From Pseudomonadota bacterium (lineage in GTDB: Bacteria; Pseudomonadota; Gammaproteobacteria; Burkholderiales; Methylophilaceae): DNA of 64,000 nucleotides. How positions within the stretch are numbered: the first letter of the stretch is position 1; every line of letters starts with the position of its first letter. The DNA is taken from NCBI GenBank assembly GCA_029556915.1, contig JAKQIT010000074.1:248001-312000 (forward strand). Reading direction: 5' to 3'. The notes beneath the pieces were generated by a model. The model had not been told where the DNA came from and did no database searches. It was given only the letters and a program-made list of their open reading frames with translations. A program made the position numbers and the translations under genes. Below are positions 3,784 through 61,350 of this stretch, one piece after another.

Positions 3784-3879
3784 AAAAACCTCAGTGATAA
3801 TGATGAAAGAAATTTATTATACCTGTGCATGATACGCCATGACATTGCGCATTATCAAAAGCTTTTTGATGTCCTCAAA

Positions 3880-3940
3880 ACGCCCGAGAGAAAATGACAG
3901 CCCTGGAATCCGCGCCGTTATTGGCTTACAGAGCCGTCAC
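3880..3940 (+). repeat. Palindromic repeat family, degenerate copy (sbp-cysK gap)
   Basis: Recognisable by the left flank CGCCCGAGAG and the right arm GGCTTACAGAG. The left arm and loop have diverged (CCCTGGAATCC, then GCGCCGTTATT). It occupies most of the 192-base gap between sbp and cysK. Confidence 0.65.
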
Positions 3941-3975
3941 TATGATAATAGTAAAAATTCAGTCAAAAATATACG

Positions 3976-6626: not shown

Positions 6627-6823
6627 TCTTTTTCCTTAATTTAAATGTCATAATTTAATTTTGCAAAGTGCAATTTTTAATACATGCACGCACTATAAAT
6701 CAGCATTTAAATAATTAAAAAGAATTTAATAATATATTTATATAACTATTATGAATATAATATTGACGAGATTTTTTGATGTTTTTATGGGGTTAATTAA
6801 ACGTTTACGAAATAGCAAAATTA
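6627..6823. promoter_or_regulatory. AT-rich upstream region of the porin-sbp-cys locus
   Basis: About 200 bases of very AT-rich DNA precede the porin start and must contain the promoter of the sulfur locus. Several TATATT- and TATTAT-like hexamers are present on the minus strand, so no single -10 can be chosen. A CysB-type site cannot be defined by eye. Confidence 0.4.
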
Positions 6824-6880
6824 GCGCGAGAAAAAATAATGCCTCTGGAAGCCGCATGGATACTGGCTTACAGAGGCGTC
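6824..6880 (+). repeat. Palindromic repeat family copy (near-consensus)
   Basis: Flank GCGCGAGAAAAA, then a 35-base core at 6842-6876: left arm CCTCTGGAAGCC, loop GCATGGATACT, right arm GGCTTACAGAGG. It lies between the lipoprotein gene end and the porin promoter region. Confidence 0.85.
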
Positions 6881-6918
6881 AAAAAGATGTTGTGCTAAAA
6901 ATAGGTTTTTTTTGTGTG

Positions 6919-8456: not shown

Positions 8457-9851
8457 TTATTGTTGAAAAAACTGCATCAGCTTCATCATGCTAGAAGCCT
8501 TATCAAAAGTTTCAGTATATTCTTTTTCCAGCTCAGAATCTGCCACAATGCCGCCACCTGCATAAAAGCTGATTTCACCATCAGCATACACCGCCGTGCG
8601 AATAGCAATATTAGTATCCATATTGCCATCAAAGCCAATATAGCCAATCGCGCCACAATACAGCCCGCGTTGGTGCGGTTCTAGCTCTTCAATAATCTGC
8701 ATCGCTCTTAATTTAGGTGCGCCGGTAATCGAACCACCAGGAAAACATCCGCGCAATAAGTCGAGCGCCGTTTTTCCCTTGGCAAGTTTGCCCATGATGA
8801 TGCTCACCAAATGATGCACATTGGCAAAACTTTGTAGCTGAAATAATTTATCCGCTTTCACCGAGCCAATTGCACAATTTTTGCCAATATCGTTACGCAA
8901 TAAATCCACAATCATCAAGTTTTCGGCACGGTCTTTTAAGCTATCTTGTAACTCTGTGGCATTTTGCGCATCTTGTTTTGCGTTGTCTGAACGCGGGCGC
9001 GTGCCTTTAATCGGACGCGTTTCAACATGCTGATTGTTGACTTGCAAAAAGCGCTCAGGCGAAGCACATAACACCTCACATTGCGGCAAACGCATATATG
9101 CCATAAATGGCGCGGGGGAAATTTCACGCAGTTTTTGGTAAGCTTGCCAGCCATCGCCTTGCGCATTTGCGCTAAAACGTTGCGCTAAGTTGACTTGGTA
9201 ACAATCGCCTTCAAGAATATATTTTTTTACCTTGTTAAAAGCATGTTCATAGTGCAGTTTTGTGAGGTTAGAAATCACTTTTGAAGTAATTTTAAACGCA
9301 GTCTTCATTTGAGCACCGCTGGAAGCCGCACAGAATAAGGCTTGCAGAGCATCAAAATTCTCTCGGGCGTTTTGATGGACATTTTGTGAGACTAAAAAAG
9401 CGGTTTTTTCTTGGTGATCCACCACCACCGCGCAGTCATAAATCCCCACCATCATTTGCGGTGTTTTTGCCTGAATTTGCTTATTTTCAGCGTGCTTTTC
9501 GATGCGCTTGCCTAAGTCGTAAGCAAAATAACCTAGCGCGCCTCCCGCAAACGGAACTTTAGGTTCAGCGTGGGCTGTATATCTTCCTAAGACATTTTTT
9601 ACGAGTTGAAATGGGTCATCATTTGATAATGTTACCTGGCCATTTTCAGTAATTTGCGTTTCATCGCCTACAGAAACAAAGGTGATTCGCGGTTTAGCCA
9701 CCAAAATATCATAATGTCCATATTGACTGCTTGGCGCACCTAAATGATTGTGCTGTTGTGCGCTGTCTAGCCACATCGCCCAGTCGCAATGCGCAATGTG
9801 CGCAAACAGTCGTGCAGTATTGTGGTGATATGGAAGCGCGTGTTTTAGCAT
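8457..9851 (-). CDS. pabB: Aminodeoxychorismate synthase component I (PabB) with a repeat-derived in-frame insert
   Basis: Converts chorismate plus ammonia to 4-amino-4-deoxychorismate for p-aminobenzoate, a precursor of folate and H4MPT. The 464-residue chain has a TrpE/PabB N-terminal domain (about 1-155) and a chorismate-binding domain (about 195-464). Motifs are LEGDCYQVNLAQRF, PERFLQ, RPIKGTRPR, DLLRNDIG, GGSITGAPKLRAM and the ending AGGGIVADSELEKEY. Residues 160-182 (QNARENFDALQALFCAASSG and onward) are encoded by a complete copy of the intergenic palindromic repeat on the minus strand. It adds a linker between the two domains without breaking the frame. The gene overlaps the upstream MfnF-like gene by 7 bases. 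PabC, the lyase partner, is encoded 9 kb away. Confidence 0.94.
   Translation of the reverse strand: MLKHALPYHHNTARLFAHIAHCDWAMWLDSAQQHNHLGAPSSQYGHYDILVAKPRITFVSVGDETQITENGQVTLSNDDPFQLVKNVLGRYTAHAEPKVPFAGGALGYFAYDLGKRIEKHAENKQIQAKTPQMMVGIYDCAVVVDHQEKTAFLVSQNVHQNARENFDALQALFCAASSGAQMKTAFKITSKVISNLTKLHYEHAFNKVKKYILEGDCYQVNLAQRFSANAQGDGWQAYQKLREISPAPFMAYMRLPQCEVLCASPERFLQVNNQHVETRPIKGTRPRSDNAKQDAQNATELQDSLKDRAENLMIVDLLRNDIGKNCAIGSVKADKLFQLQSFANVHHLVSIIMGKLAKGKTALDLLRGCFPGGSITGAPKLRAMQIIEELEPHQRGLYCGAIGYIGFDGNMDTNIAIRTAVYADGEISFYAGGGIVADSELEKEYTETFDKASSMMKLMQFFQQ
9306..9372 (-). repeat. Palindromic repeat family copy inside the pabB reading frame
   Basis: On the minus strand the flank CGCCCGAGAGAATTTTGAT is followed by arms GCTCTGCAAGCC and GGCTTCCAGCGG around loop TTATTCTGTGC (core 9316-9350). 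The right flank TGCTCAAATGA matches the flank of the copy near 61.3 kb. It is read in frame as PabB residues 160-182, in the linker between the N-terminal and chorismate-binding domains. Confidence 0.85.
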
Positions 9852-10879
9852 ATTGGTTGGTTTTGTTGCCCTAAGCTAGCCACTGCAAACGCAGGAAAGC
9901 ACATCGCGGTTACTTTTTTCATTTCTGGCTTGTTTGCGTTAATCAAATCGGTCACCGAATGGTAGTGTAAGTTAAGTTGTTGAGCGAGCTCAATCGCCAA
10001 AAAGTCCCCCGCCCCACAGCCAACAATCGTCAAGTTTTGAGCAGTGTCAACCCTCGATAACTGCCGCAATACGGCTTGCTGAATTAAACTGAGCTGTGCG
10101 TCTTTAAATGCCTTGGCCAACGCTGTCCATGTGCTTAACGGTGCATCGGCAGAGTCCATGCCCACCATGCGGGCAATACGTTTTGCGCAAGCTGCGCTAG
10201 TTTTATCTGCGCCATCGGCGGTATCGGCCATGTTTTCATTAAGCGGCAATTCGCCCGTGAGCGTGTAAATATCGGCTGTAGTGGCAAAATGTTCCGCAGC
10301 CACATTCACAGCATGGCCTTTAAATGCAATTTTTGGCGTTAAAGCCATCAGTGGGGTGCGCACCACGCCCGTGTAAACCAACTCATCGGTTTGCAGTCGC
10401 GCGGCATCATTAAAACCCAATATGCGCGGCTTACCGTAGCAAATTAAAGCAATATCAGTCGTGGTGCTGCCAATATCTAAAAATAAAGCTTGGTGGATAT
10501 TTTGCGCCACAAACTGCACGCTGGCGAGCCAATTCATGGAGGCAATGTTTACGGCATTTTCAGGCACTTGCGCCAAGCTAACATAGCCTTTTTCACCTGC
10601 GAAAAACTGGATATTCCCGCCCAATTTTTGCCGTGCGATTTGCGCAATTTGCGTAACACCTGCGTGGCGATTTTCAAAAATATCGGCGAGTTCGCCTGTC
10701 ATGGTAATGCGATGCTGCTCAGCCTTTATTGCGCTTAATATCGTGTCAAACGCTTGCGCCAATTCATGCAAACCGCGCCAGAGCGGACAATATACTTGCA
10801 TTGCAGCTTGCACCTCACCATGCACATCAATTTGCACCGCTTTCAGGTGCGCACCACCGATGTCCCAACCAATCATCAT
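9845..10879 (-). CDS. H4MPT-linked C1 pathway protein, hydantoinase/oxoprolinase-like (COG1548, MfnF-like)
   Basis: A 344-residue protein of the hydantoinase-A/actin-like ATPase fold. The N-terminus (MIGWDIGGAHLKAVQID) carries the phosphate-1 loop, LFLDIGSTTTDIALI (about 130-145) the second nucleotide loop, and TIVGCGAGDFLAIELAQ the adenosine motif. Members are restricted to organisms with H4MPT/methanofuran. The methanogen homologue MfnF couples the phosphorylated furan to glutamyl-tyramine in methanofuran synthesis, and I infer a matching role here. It overlaps the ATP-grasp gene upstream by 4 bases and pabB downstream by 7. The family call is good; the bacterial reaction is inference. Confidence 0.82.
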   Translation of the reverse strand: MMIGWDIGGAHLKAVQIDVHGEVQAAMQVYCPLWRGLHELAQAFDTILSAIKAEQHRITMTGELADIFENRHAGVTQIAQIARQKLGGNIQFFAGEKGYVSLAQVPENAVNIASMNWLASVQFVAQNIHQALFLDIGSTTTDIALICYGKPRILGFNDAARLQTDELVYTGVVRTPLMALTPKIAFKGHAVNVAAEHFATTADIYTLTGELPLNENMADTADGADKTSAACAKRIARMVGMDSADAPLSTWTALAKAFKDAQLSLIQQAVLRQLSRVDTAQNLTIVGCGAGDFLAIELAQQLNLHYHSVTDLINANKPEMKKVTAMCFPAFAVASLGQQNQPIC

Positions 10880-12716: not shown

Positions 12717-12782
12717 AGCAATGCCAGCATTTTTCATCCAGCAATTTTCAGAAAAAAAAGTAATAAAAAACGCCCTAAAACT

Positions 12783-12840
12783 GCCGAGCGATTTTTAATG
12801 CCTCTGCAAGCCGCATGGATACTGGCTTACAGAGGTGCAC
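12783..12840 (+). repeat. Palindromic repeat family copy (consensus-like)
   Basis: Flank GCCGAGCGATTTTTAATG, core 12801-12835 with left arm CCTCTGCAAGCC, loop GCATGGATACT and right arm GGCTTACAGAGG. It lies between the converging HisA-like and infA genes. The arms pair perfectly except for one C-A position, which becomes G-U in RNA read from the other strand. Confidence 0.88.
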
Positions 12841-12899
12841 AAAAGAAGTGCGAATGAAATTTGCCAATAATTAAATAAAATTAACTGGCTAAATTGTGG

Positions 12900-19801: not shown

Positions 19802-19855
19802 CTAAAAATGCAATTGATAGGCCAATAAATGTTCAATAAAAAACTTAATAAAATA

Positions 19856-19913
19856 CCCGAGAGATTTTGATGCCTCTGCAAGCCGCGTAGATACTGGCTT
19901 ACAGAGGCATCAT
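19856..19913 (+). repeat. Palindromic repeat family copy (pabC-fabF gap)
   Basis: Flank CCCGAGAGATTTTGATG, core 19873-19907 with arms CCTCTGCAAGCC and GGCTTACAGAGG around loop GCGTAGATACT. It lies between the fabF 3' end and the pabC promoter region. Confidence 0.87.
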
Positions 19914-19943
19914 TAGGATAACTAAAAAATAATGCTGGTTAAA

Positions 19944-26028: not shown

Positions 26029-26095
26029 CGCCCCGAGAAAAATTTTCGCCTCTGCAAGCCAGTATCCATGCGGCTTACAGGACATCAAAAAGAAG
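26029..26095 (+). repeat. Palindromic repeat family copy with inverted loop
   Basis: Flank CGCCCCGAGAAAAATTTTCG, core 26049-26082 with arms CCTCTGCAAGCC and GGCTTACAGG. The 11-base loop reads AGTATCCATGC, the reverse complement of the usual GCATGGATACT. The right flank CATCAAAAAGAAGTG resembles that of the copies at 6.8 and 12.8 kb. Confidence 0.87.
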
Positions 26096-32475: not shown

Positions 32476-32590
32476 GCGCCGAGAAAAAATCATCGCCCTG
32501 TACCAGTTCTTGGCATCACCATTCTCACTAAGTGCTAAAGCACTAAGTCGAATGCGAAAGCCGCATGGATACTGGCTTGCAGGGCATGTG
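32476..32590 (+). repeat. Palindromic repeat family copy split by a ~55-base insertion
   Basis: Flank GCGCCGAGAAAAAATCAT, then a left arm start CGCCCTG. About 55 unrelated bases follow (from TACCAGTTC to GAATGCG), then the rest: AAGCC, loop GCATGGATACT, right arm GGCTTGCAGGGC. The insert contains its own palindrome AGTGCT-AA-AGCACT. Confidence 0.75.
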
Positions 32591-32637
32591 TTTTGATATC
32601 GTGTAAAATAAGTGCAAAATTTAGAAATAATTAACCC

Positions 32638-34517: not shown

Positions 34518-34586
34518 CGCCCGAGAAAAATTTTCTCCTCTGCGAGCCGCATGCAGACTGGCTTACAGAGGTGGTGAAATGATATG
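34518..34586 (+). repeat. Palindromic repeat family copy (upstream of rnhB)
   Basis: Flank CGCCCGAGAAAAATTTTCT, core 34537-34571 with arms CCTCTGCGAGCC and GGCTTACAGAGG and loop GCATGCAGACT. The right flank TGGTGAAATGATATGTG is shared with the copy at 38.4 kb. On the minus strand it contributes a false start codon in frame with rnhB. Confidence 0.87.
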
Positions 34587-38356: not shown

Positions 38357-38364
38357 GGCAAAAA

Positions 38365-38435
38365 TCGCCCGAGGATTTTTTATGCCTCTGCAAGCCGCAT
38401 AGAATAAGGCTCGCAGAGGTGGTGAAATGATGTTG
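38365..38435 (+). repeat. Palindromic repeat family copy (glnD-cupin gap)
   Basis: Flank CGCCCGAGGATTTTTTATG, core 38384-38418 with arms CCTCTGCAAGCC and GGCTCGCAGAGG and loop GCATAGAATAA. The right flank TGGTGAAATGATGTTGTG matches the copy upstream of rnhB. The loop is shared, inverted, with the copy inside pabB. Confidence 0.87.
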
Positions 38436-38454
38436 TGTTATTTCAATACATTTT

Positions 38455-38727
38455 TTAATCAAAATGATAATGCTTGCGCAGGGCTTTTTTAACCTGCCAA
38501 GTGCAACTTAGCCCAGTGGGAAAAGTCACTAAATCGCCCGCGCCAAAGCTCACCGATTCGCCACCTTTTTCTATCACCGTGACTTCGCCTTCTAAAATAT
38601 AGGCGATTTCTTGCGAGCTATAACTCCACGGAAACTCGGAAACTTCTTTGGTCCAAATCGGCCAGCTAGTGACCCCTAAAGACTTCAACTTTTCTGCACT
38701 CGGTTTTTCTACGGTAATTTTAGGCAT
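38455..38727 (-). CDS. Cupin-domain protein (DUF861 type), paralogue 1
   Basis: A 90-residue single-cupin protein. Its start is ATG 38727 (MPKITVEKPSAEKLKSLGVT), with AAGGAG eight bases upstream. The fold is shown by SQEIAYILEGEVTVIEKGGESVSFGAGDLVTFPTGLS-type sequence: tyrosine-leucine-glutamate-glycine turn and the G-D-x-V-x-F-P strand. The DUF861 cupins have lost most metal-binding histidines, as here. It is a paralogue of the next gene upstream. Substrate unknown; a sugar- or small-carboxylate-binding role is only a guess from the fold. Confidence 0.85.
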   Translation of the reverse strand: MPKITVEKPSAEKLKSLGVTSWPIWTKEVSEFPWSYSSQEIAYILEGEVTVIEKGGESVSFGAGDLVTFPTGLSCTWQVKKALRKHYHFD

Positions 38728-61211: not shown

Positions 61212-61276
61212 CCCAACGTTCAACGCTTCTGTTGCCAAATTTTAGATATTTAACAACTGTAATTTTGGCTAATTTT

Positions 61277-61350
61277 TAGCACATATCATTTGAGCACCTC
61301 TGCAAGCCTCTATCCATGCGGCTTACAAAGGCATGATTTTTTCTCGGGCA
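61277..61350 (-). repeat. Palindromic repeat family copy (minus orientation)
   Basis: On the minus strand flank TGCCCGAGAAAAAATCATG, arms CCTTTGTAAGCC and GGCTTGCAGAGG, loop GCATGGATAGA, right flank TGCTCAAATGATATGTG (core 61297-61331). It lies between dnaB and the DUF1801 gene. Confidence 0.85.

Follow-up and report, generated by a model that had tools for sequence, protein, structure and literature searches.

A dispersed palindrome translated in frame in the PabB linker of a Methylophilaceae bacterium matches its own genome's repeat family and probably overwrote an older linker of similar length

A copy of a dispersed palindromic repeat is read in frame as part of PabB (aminodeoxychorismate synthase component I) in the bacterium considered here. 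The repeat adds no residues to the protein, it occupies the same site in the PabB of several relatives, and there, as in PolA and MutL, its sequence matches the version of the repeat dispersed through the host's own genome. The window, that is, the whole stretch of 64,000 nucleotides that was analysed, is G000:C14:248001-312000 in a 3.28-Mb assembly, G000, with an estimated contamination of 5.65%.

The pabB gene of the window is an uninterrupted reading frame of 464 amino acids. Its product matches E. coli PabB (1k0e) with an E value of 1.5e-123 and, among the 21 loci compared, is closest to that of Methylotenera sp. WB-IL-03 (L009), with 85% protein identity. On the coding strand the 63-nt repeat copy reads CCCGAGAGAATTTTGATGCT-CTGCAAGCC-TTATTCTGTGC-GGCTTCCAG-CGGTGCTCAAATGA (Table 1). 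A sequence-only reading had placed a minus-strand copy here with flank, arms and loop intact, and a profile HMM trained with pabB masked agrees: the copy gets 54.5 bits and comes 17th among the 70 copies in 464 kb, whose median is 49.0. The same HMM scores at best 8.1 on 864 kb of the genome reversed and 12.0 bits on three first-order resamples, and chance resemblance was rejected on this ground as the origin of the copy. Its position is also the best ungapped offset of the whole gene against the family profile. The arms pair at eight of nine positions, and the loop, GCACAGAATAA on the plus strand, is one base away from GCATAGAATAA at 38.4 kb, which bears out the claim that the two loops are near reverse complements. 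Neither a stop codon nor a frameshift interrupts the frame, again as had been read, though the residues are 162-183 rather than 160-182. Since the Pfam domains end at 153 (Anth_synt_I_N, 13-153) and resume at 199 (Chorismate_bind, 199-451), the repeat is an inter-domain segment, between the N-terminal and chorismate-binding domains where it had been said to lie.

Table 1. Positions of the pabB repeat, its parts, dispersed copies in the window and related loci
Feature	Position	Strand	Basis
pabB, whole gene (464 codons, no interruption)	8457..9851	-	ORF, Pfam, 1k0e match
In-frame repeat copy (PabB residues 162-183), matching positions 1-63 of the 64-position model	9305..9367	-	54.5 bits, pabB masked
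5' arm, coding strand, CTGCAAGCC, residues L-Q-A	9339..9347	-	sequence
Loop TTATTCTGTGC, encodes ancestral L-F	9328..9338	-	sequence
3' arm GGCTTCCAG, within residues A-A-S-S	9319..9327	-	sequence
Family left flank CGCCCGAGAG, residues A-R-E	9360..9369	-	sequence
Tail CGGTGCTCAAATGA, of the type of the window genome's family	9305..9318	-	comparison with family copies
Dispersed family copy	3877..3948	+	
Dispersed family copy	6821..6912	+	
Dispersed family copy	12780..12871	+	
Dispersed family copy	19852..19943	+	
Dispersed copy, loop inverted relative to flanks	26032..26091	+	
Partial dispersed copy	32556..32596	+	
Dispersed family copy	34520..34583	+	
Dispersed copy with AGAATAA loop, the one compared with pabB in the sequence-only reading	38364..38455	+	
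Dispersed copy, inverted loop	56714..56748	+	
Dispersed family copy	61265..61349	-	
PolA with TTCGCCCTGAGCCTGTCGAAGGGC-type sequence	L101 (G008), L106 (G038), L089 (G044), L095 (G041)		
Second-repeat and palindrome junctions	L067 14967, L071 17892, L073 10034 and 16395, L342		

The family to which this copy belongs is abundant. There are 132 distinct copies in 864 kb of G000, and 286 places in that genome match one core loop variant (GCATGGATACT-type) with three mismatches or fewer; a reversed control pattern of that core finds no place in the whole genome. Copies are about 60-100 bp long, with a CCCGAGAAAAATTT flank, arms of 9-12 nt, a loop of about 11 nt and a host-specific tail, and in G000 they follow the plan CCCGAGAAAAATTTnATGCC-TCTGnAAGCC-loop-GGCTTnCAGAG, then GGTGnTGAAATGATG or similar. 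Loops with TTATTC or GAATAA occur in 13 of the 106 non-coding G000 copies examined. A known structured RNA family was considered and rejected as the repeat's identity, because Rfam at gathering cut-offs finds one tRNA in the window and no match for the repeat.

It would be natural to suppose that a mobile palindrome was inserted into pabB, and the sequence-only reading had supposed just that, with an insert of 20-25 residues limited to this lineage. The relatives say otherwise. The spanning segment of PabB was recovered from 50 of 52 genomes of the genus, many of the comparison genomes being incomplete. Five of the 50 genes (in G000, G019, G020, G032 and G033) carry the repeat, at 26.7-54.5 bits and in an identical register, and the other 45 have no HMM match above 9.7 bits anywhere in the gene. 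Measured from one fixed anchor to the other, the segment is 57-58 residues long in the carriers and 55-64 (median 59) in 44 non-carriers, leaving aside the truncated match of G023, which starts inside the anchors. On these lengths a simple insertion in pabB was rejected. The further idea that a mobile insertion created the linker is unsupported, as orthologues free of the repeat have a segment of about equal length. That reading had also held that it would fail if all orthologues had a diverged segment unlike the repeat; 45 of the 50 do, and five do not. Where the repeat is absent, and in outgroup genera, the protein reads RENWDALCALFDAP or W..LCALFDAP and variants; where it is present, ARENFDALQALFCAASSG and variants. 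In the carriers the conserved Trp (as in RENWDALCALFDAP) has become F or L and ALF is kept, the ALF of non-carriers aligning with that inside the repeat. Because the lengths are much alike and ALF aligns while Trp is lost, the older linker appears to have been overwritten in register. Upstream, at PabB residue 140 (window 9432-9434), a near-invariant Trp (GIYDW) is Cys in G000 and G019.

I propose that, in an ancestor which the window's species shares with some close relatives, the palindrome replaced a pre-existing inter-domain linker of pabB in register and left the number of residues as it was. The route would be recombination or template switching that swapped a linker stretch of approximately equal length. 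Afterwards the pabB copy would have been rewritten to follow each genome's dispersed version, a case of concerted evolution, most likely through gene conversion between coding and many non-coding copies. Selection would keep the frame open and discard versions that break it or lose needed residues, and these residues would lie mainly in the loop: L-F in PabB and K-Y-K in a ZIP transporter. The sequences show that the copy belongs to the family, is in frame, comes with no insert, occupies the same site in relatives and matches own-genome versions. That there was one event in an ancestor, that conversion was the route, that selection preserved certain residues and that the linker tolerates change are inferences beyond that comparison, and I judge the account as a whole (overwriting in an ancestor, later rewriting after the genome's own family, residues kept by selection) to be reasonably probable. 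A broader claim could go either way: that linkers evolve in concert with non-coding repeats, that residues of PabB, PolA and MutL record the repeat version of their genome, and that coding copies may be reservoirs when the family shrinks.

The dispersed families differ from genome to genome, and the coding copies differ with them. Those of G000 have mostly GCATGGATACT-type loops and a AAATGATG-type tail. Loops of TTTATTTATAA type are found at 229 places in G032 and 276 in G033, as against 34 in G000, 29 in G013 and between 1 and 16 in each of the remaining 48 genomes, and the tail AAAGGTTG is found in 18 of 24 G032/G033 copies as against none of 106 G000 copies. The PabB copies of G032 and G033 have the AAAAAGGTTG tail and a TTTTAyAA loop, that of G000 has the TCAAATGA tail, and that of G020 has a GGGCATC tail like the copies of its own family. 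Two comparisons put numbers to this. With two models, one from G000 copies (drawn from 106 full-length ones taken as non-coding) and one from G032/G033 (the 24 of 28 non-coding copies that could be oriented), each of the eight coding copies from G000, G032 and G033 does better on the model of its own genome, with a margin of 13-47 bits. Held-out non-coding copies serve as the yardstick: their own model wins in 76 of 82 cases for G000 and in 48 of 48 for G032/G033 (repeated halves). With three models (G000, G020 and pooled G032/G033, from 24 copies each, those of G000 being the training copies of the held-out test), 11 of 11 coding copies score best on the model of their own genome, these being PabB and PolA of G000, G020, G032 and G033 and MutL of G000, G020 and G033, and so not independent tests, with three genes in four genomes of which two are sisters sharing the pooled model. 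The smallest margin is 1.3 bits, for PolA of G000 over the G020 model. The G020 model copies were unscreened for coding ones, but the stretches used exclude pabB, polA and mutL of G020. When scored on two models alone, PabB of G020 fits both equally and its PolA prefers that of G032/G033; given their own model both prefer it. Genomes without a model of their own are uncounted: PabB of G019, a genome close to G000, has its highest score on the G032/G033 model (28.0 vs 15.7 and 18.6), and PolA and MutL of G021 prefer the G020 model.

PolA and MutL add to the picture. The PolA copies of G000, G032 and G033 have an atypical left flank in common (CCGAGGGCAAA, then CACCTGCCC) and different tails, so they may well come from one old insertion that was later rewritten. 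The MutL copy of G044 (L138) has the exact core GAGCCAATAGGGACGGGCTT of its own family; in that genome AATAGGGAC-type loops occur at 36 places, one of which is the MutL copy. The loop of G021 MutL, AGTATCCATGC, is the loop type of its own dispersed family, and MutL of G034, G035, G036, G041 and G051, genomes near G021 in the tree, has an ATAGGGA-type loop. The root of that tree is weak, with two outgroup rows that hold PabB only, and the position of G020 is therefore not interpreted. In G051, G045 (G045:C330) and G030 (G030:C211) the only genome match to the AATAGGGAC pattern is the MutL copy, which may be a fossil of the family or a seed.

The translation of the palindrome is not peculiar to pabB, and the likeness to the palindromic elements (RPEs) of Rickettsia proteins that had been drawn from this one gene extends to unrelated genes. 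MutL, PolA, a ZIP transporter, GluQ and TyrA of G000 contain translated copies too, six counting PabB, and the peptide ALQAS..(A)ASSGA or something near it is read in all of them but GluQ. The MutL copy is in the linker preceding the MutL_C domain, that of PolA between the 5'-nuclease and 3'-5' exonuclease domains, and that of the ZIP transporter in a histidine-rich stretch. Nine of the 132 loci in 864 kb of G000 pass the coding filter. L067 (28.5 bits, no Pfam match), L175 (21.7 bits) and L071 were left uncounted; by my own reading L067 is FmdB-like and L175 Mpl-like, and L071 probably precedes the true start. L069 was excluded as well, its position being ahead of the likely start codon.

Orthologues were fetched from 29 genomes beside G000 for PolA, MutL, ZIP and TyrA and from 21 for GluQ. 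TyrA is clearly a true in-frame insertion. It has about 34 extra residues that none of the 29 orthologues has, and the matches of other genomes break off at the insert point. The composite (L186 ~10230-10400; G000:C14 ~402 kb) consists of the in-frame palindrome and a second repeat, CACATTCGACTTAGTGC...GCACTTAGCGAGAATGG. In GluQ the gain is about 12 residues, which none of its 21 orthologues shows. There are two GluQ genes in G000, at G000:C161:959-1831 (shorter by the length of the insert) and G000:C14:383014-384012. The ZIP linker looks to have been overwritten much as that of PabB was, to judge by its sequence. All 29 orthologues have K-(Y/F)-(K/R) at the site of the palindrome loop and none has repeat-like DNA there; in G000 K-Y-K is encoded across the loop, and both arms are repeat sequence. 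The linker is 53 residues long in G000 and 42-56 in the orthologues (median 48), so a small net gain of residues is possible. The PolA linker of other species holds a different palindrome-like sequence, also in frame, of the TTCGCCCTGAGCCTGTCGAAGGGC type (Table 1), which, on a weak check, may be a dispersed repeat in those species.

How else might the PabB linker have come to be what it is? TyrA and GluQ show that true in-frame insertions do occur in G000, and PabB could be one more, its linker created by a mobile palindrome in the manner of the RPEs. It is unlikely, since no residues are added in any of the five carriers and ALF aligns inside the repeat, and an insertion would then require a compensating deletion of about equal size. 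A more serious possibility, if still a doubtful one, is that each lineage had its linkers replaced independently at the same sites of PabB, PolA and MutL, the linkers being tolerant and no conversion continuing. The TTCGCCCTGAGCCTGTCGAAGGGC sequence in the PolA linker of other species such as G008, and the PolA copy of G020, which lies in the same linker in a different register, do speak of permissive linkers. Independent events would hardly be expected, however, to give the identical PabB register in five genomes, or the atypical left flank that PolA of G000, G032 and G033 have in common.

There remain the weak resemblances to the repeat in pabB genes that do not carry it. In seven non-carriers (G009, G030, G031, G022, G011, G024 and G037) no other offset in the gene, of approximately 1320-1370, fits the intergenic profile as well as the in-register one; it ranks second in G035 and G036, with a recoding p of 0.012. 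Some segments beat their synonymous recodings (G009, p 0.008; G030, p 0.005). Such resemblances are not independent, because orthologues share ancestry, and they may mean that a weak prior likeness guided the exchange, or that pabB donated the left flank (CCCGAGAAAAATTT) of the family, a hairpin having landed in pabB, taken up neighbouring coding DNA and spread again. The rank-1 segments favour such a donation, and so do eight G044 copies and most G021 copies, which were seen without the flank. Against it, non-carriers score low on the profile (9.6 for G009 and below zero for the others), the in-register rank elsewhere is ordinary (209 of 1347 in G044, 217 of 1347 in G001) or the recoding test fails (G029, p 0.965; G031, p 0.162), exchange could simply be easier at a site similar by chance, and the flank is also in eight of 10 copies of G013, whose PabB was not recovered. 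I consider flank donation improbable, slightly more so than insertion. That pabB was the sole progenitor of the whole family is unlikely too, because hairpin families with the same arms exist in G044 and G021, where PabB is free of the copy, and because related copies are present in MutL, among the genes fetched, in many genomes. Nor is prior resemblance a general precondition: it is seen for pabB and not for the ZIP site, where the best orthologue ranks 18 of 819. Least credible of all, to the point of being negligible, is that the coding segment came to resemble the repeat by chance or convergence. Some non-carrier segments do weakly resemble the profile, but besides the bit score of the pabB copy, flank, arms, loop and host-specific tail match in several species. 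Overwriting followed by rewriting is the reading I prefer.

REPINs come in genome-specific versions. The present family has in common with the REPIN/RAYT system, as the available text of PMC3116915 describes it, that many short palindromes are dispersed in the genome, but it consists of single hairpins with asymmetric flanks and has no clear link to a transposase. One weak Y1_Tnp (RAYT-like) match, of 26.2 bits, is found in G000 (G000:C14:239783-240094, about 8 kb before the window) and none in G020 (57 repeat places) or G033 (276 places), and a RAYT transposase is an unlikely driver, no correlation with copy number being seen in these three genomes. The family resembles REPs as a small palindrome in many copies, mostly outside genes, yet its two consensus sequences contain neither GTAG nor CGTC nor the complement. 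Intragenic REPs, in the available text of PMC3733652, likewise lie inside reading frames, many in genes of DNA synthesis and repair that include DNA polymerase I, and two Xanthomonas species have different REPs at roughly one position of recB; that text contains no occurrence of Methylotenera and does not compare coding copies with the repeat family of their host. Similar, too, are the RPEs of Rickettsia, palindromes translated in frame inside unrelated housekeeping proteins (PMC10969869, PMC3767692, in their passages on RPEs). They belong to another group of organisms and are 100-150 bp long against about 60-100 bp here; the PabB copy adds no residues, whereas those of TyrA and GluQ do and that of ZIP falls within the orthologues' range. 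Tracking of the own genome by coding copies is not described in those passages. Lacking a GTAG/CGTC end and a consistent RAYT, the repeat is filed as neither RPE-type nor REP. Inverted repeats are also embedded in the protein-coding genes of Nematomorpha mitochondria, but these, in the text available from PMC6649704, are mitochondrial, long and perfect, with no dispersed bacterial family. A literature search, with subscription papers mostly outside it, found no description of this repeat family or of coding palindromes that track their host. Length-neutral overwriting in register and tracking of the own genome are apparently new; REPs inside genes and the RPEs of Rickettsia are established.

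A translated palindrome is commonly described as a one-off insertion. Here the same sites of the same genes hold different repeat versions in several species, and one can ask whether mobile repeats go on reshaping proteins, by what route of recombination, and what share of linker evolution in repeat-rich genomes is owed to non-coding copies rather than to point mutation. Different RPE types can occupy one site in orthologous Rickettsia genes, and for RPE-4, -6 and -7 the paper on Rickettsia japonica, in its passages on these elements, left it open whether this reflects a hotspot or divergence (PMC3767692). Several species with distinct versions at the same sites make that question testable here.

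Two further features of the palindrome deserve mention. Both orientations of the loop relative to the asymmetric flanks occur in the family, with two inverted examples in the window (Table 1), which suggests that the loop may invert between the arms. And a second repeat (TTCGCATTCGACTTAGTGC..GCACTTAGCGAGAATGGTGATGC) abuts one arm of the palindrome in several copies of G000 and G021, as if it targeted the hairpin.
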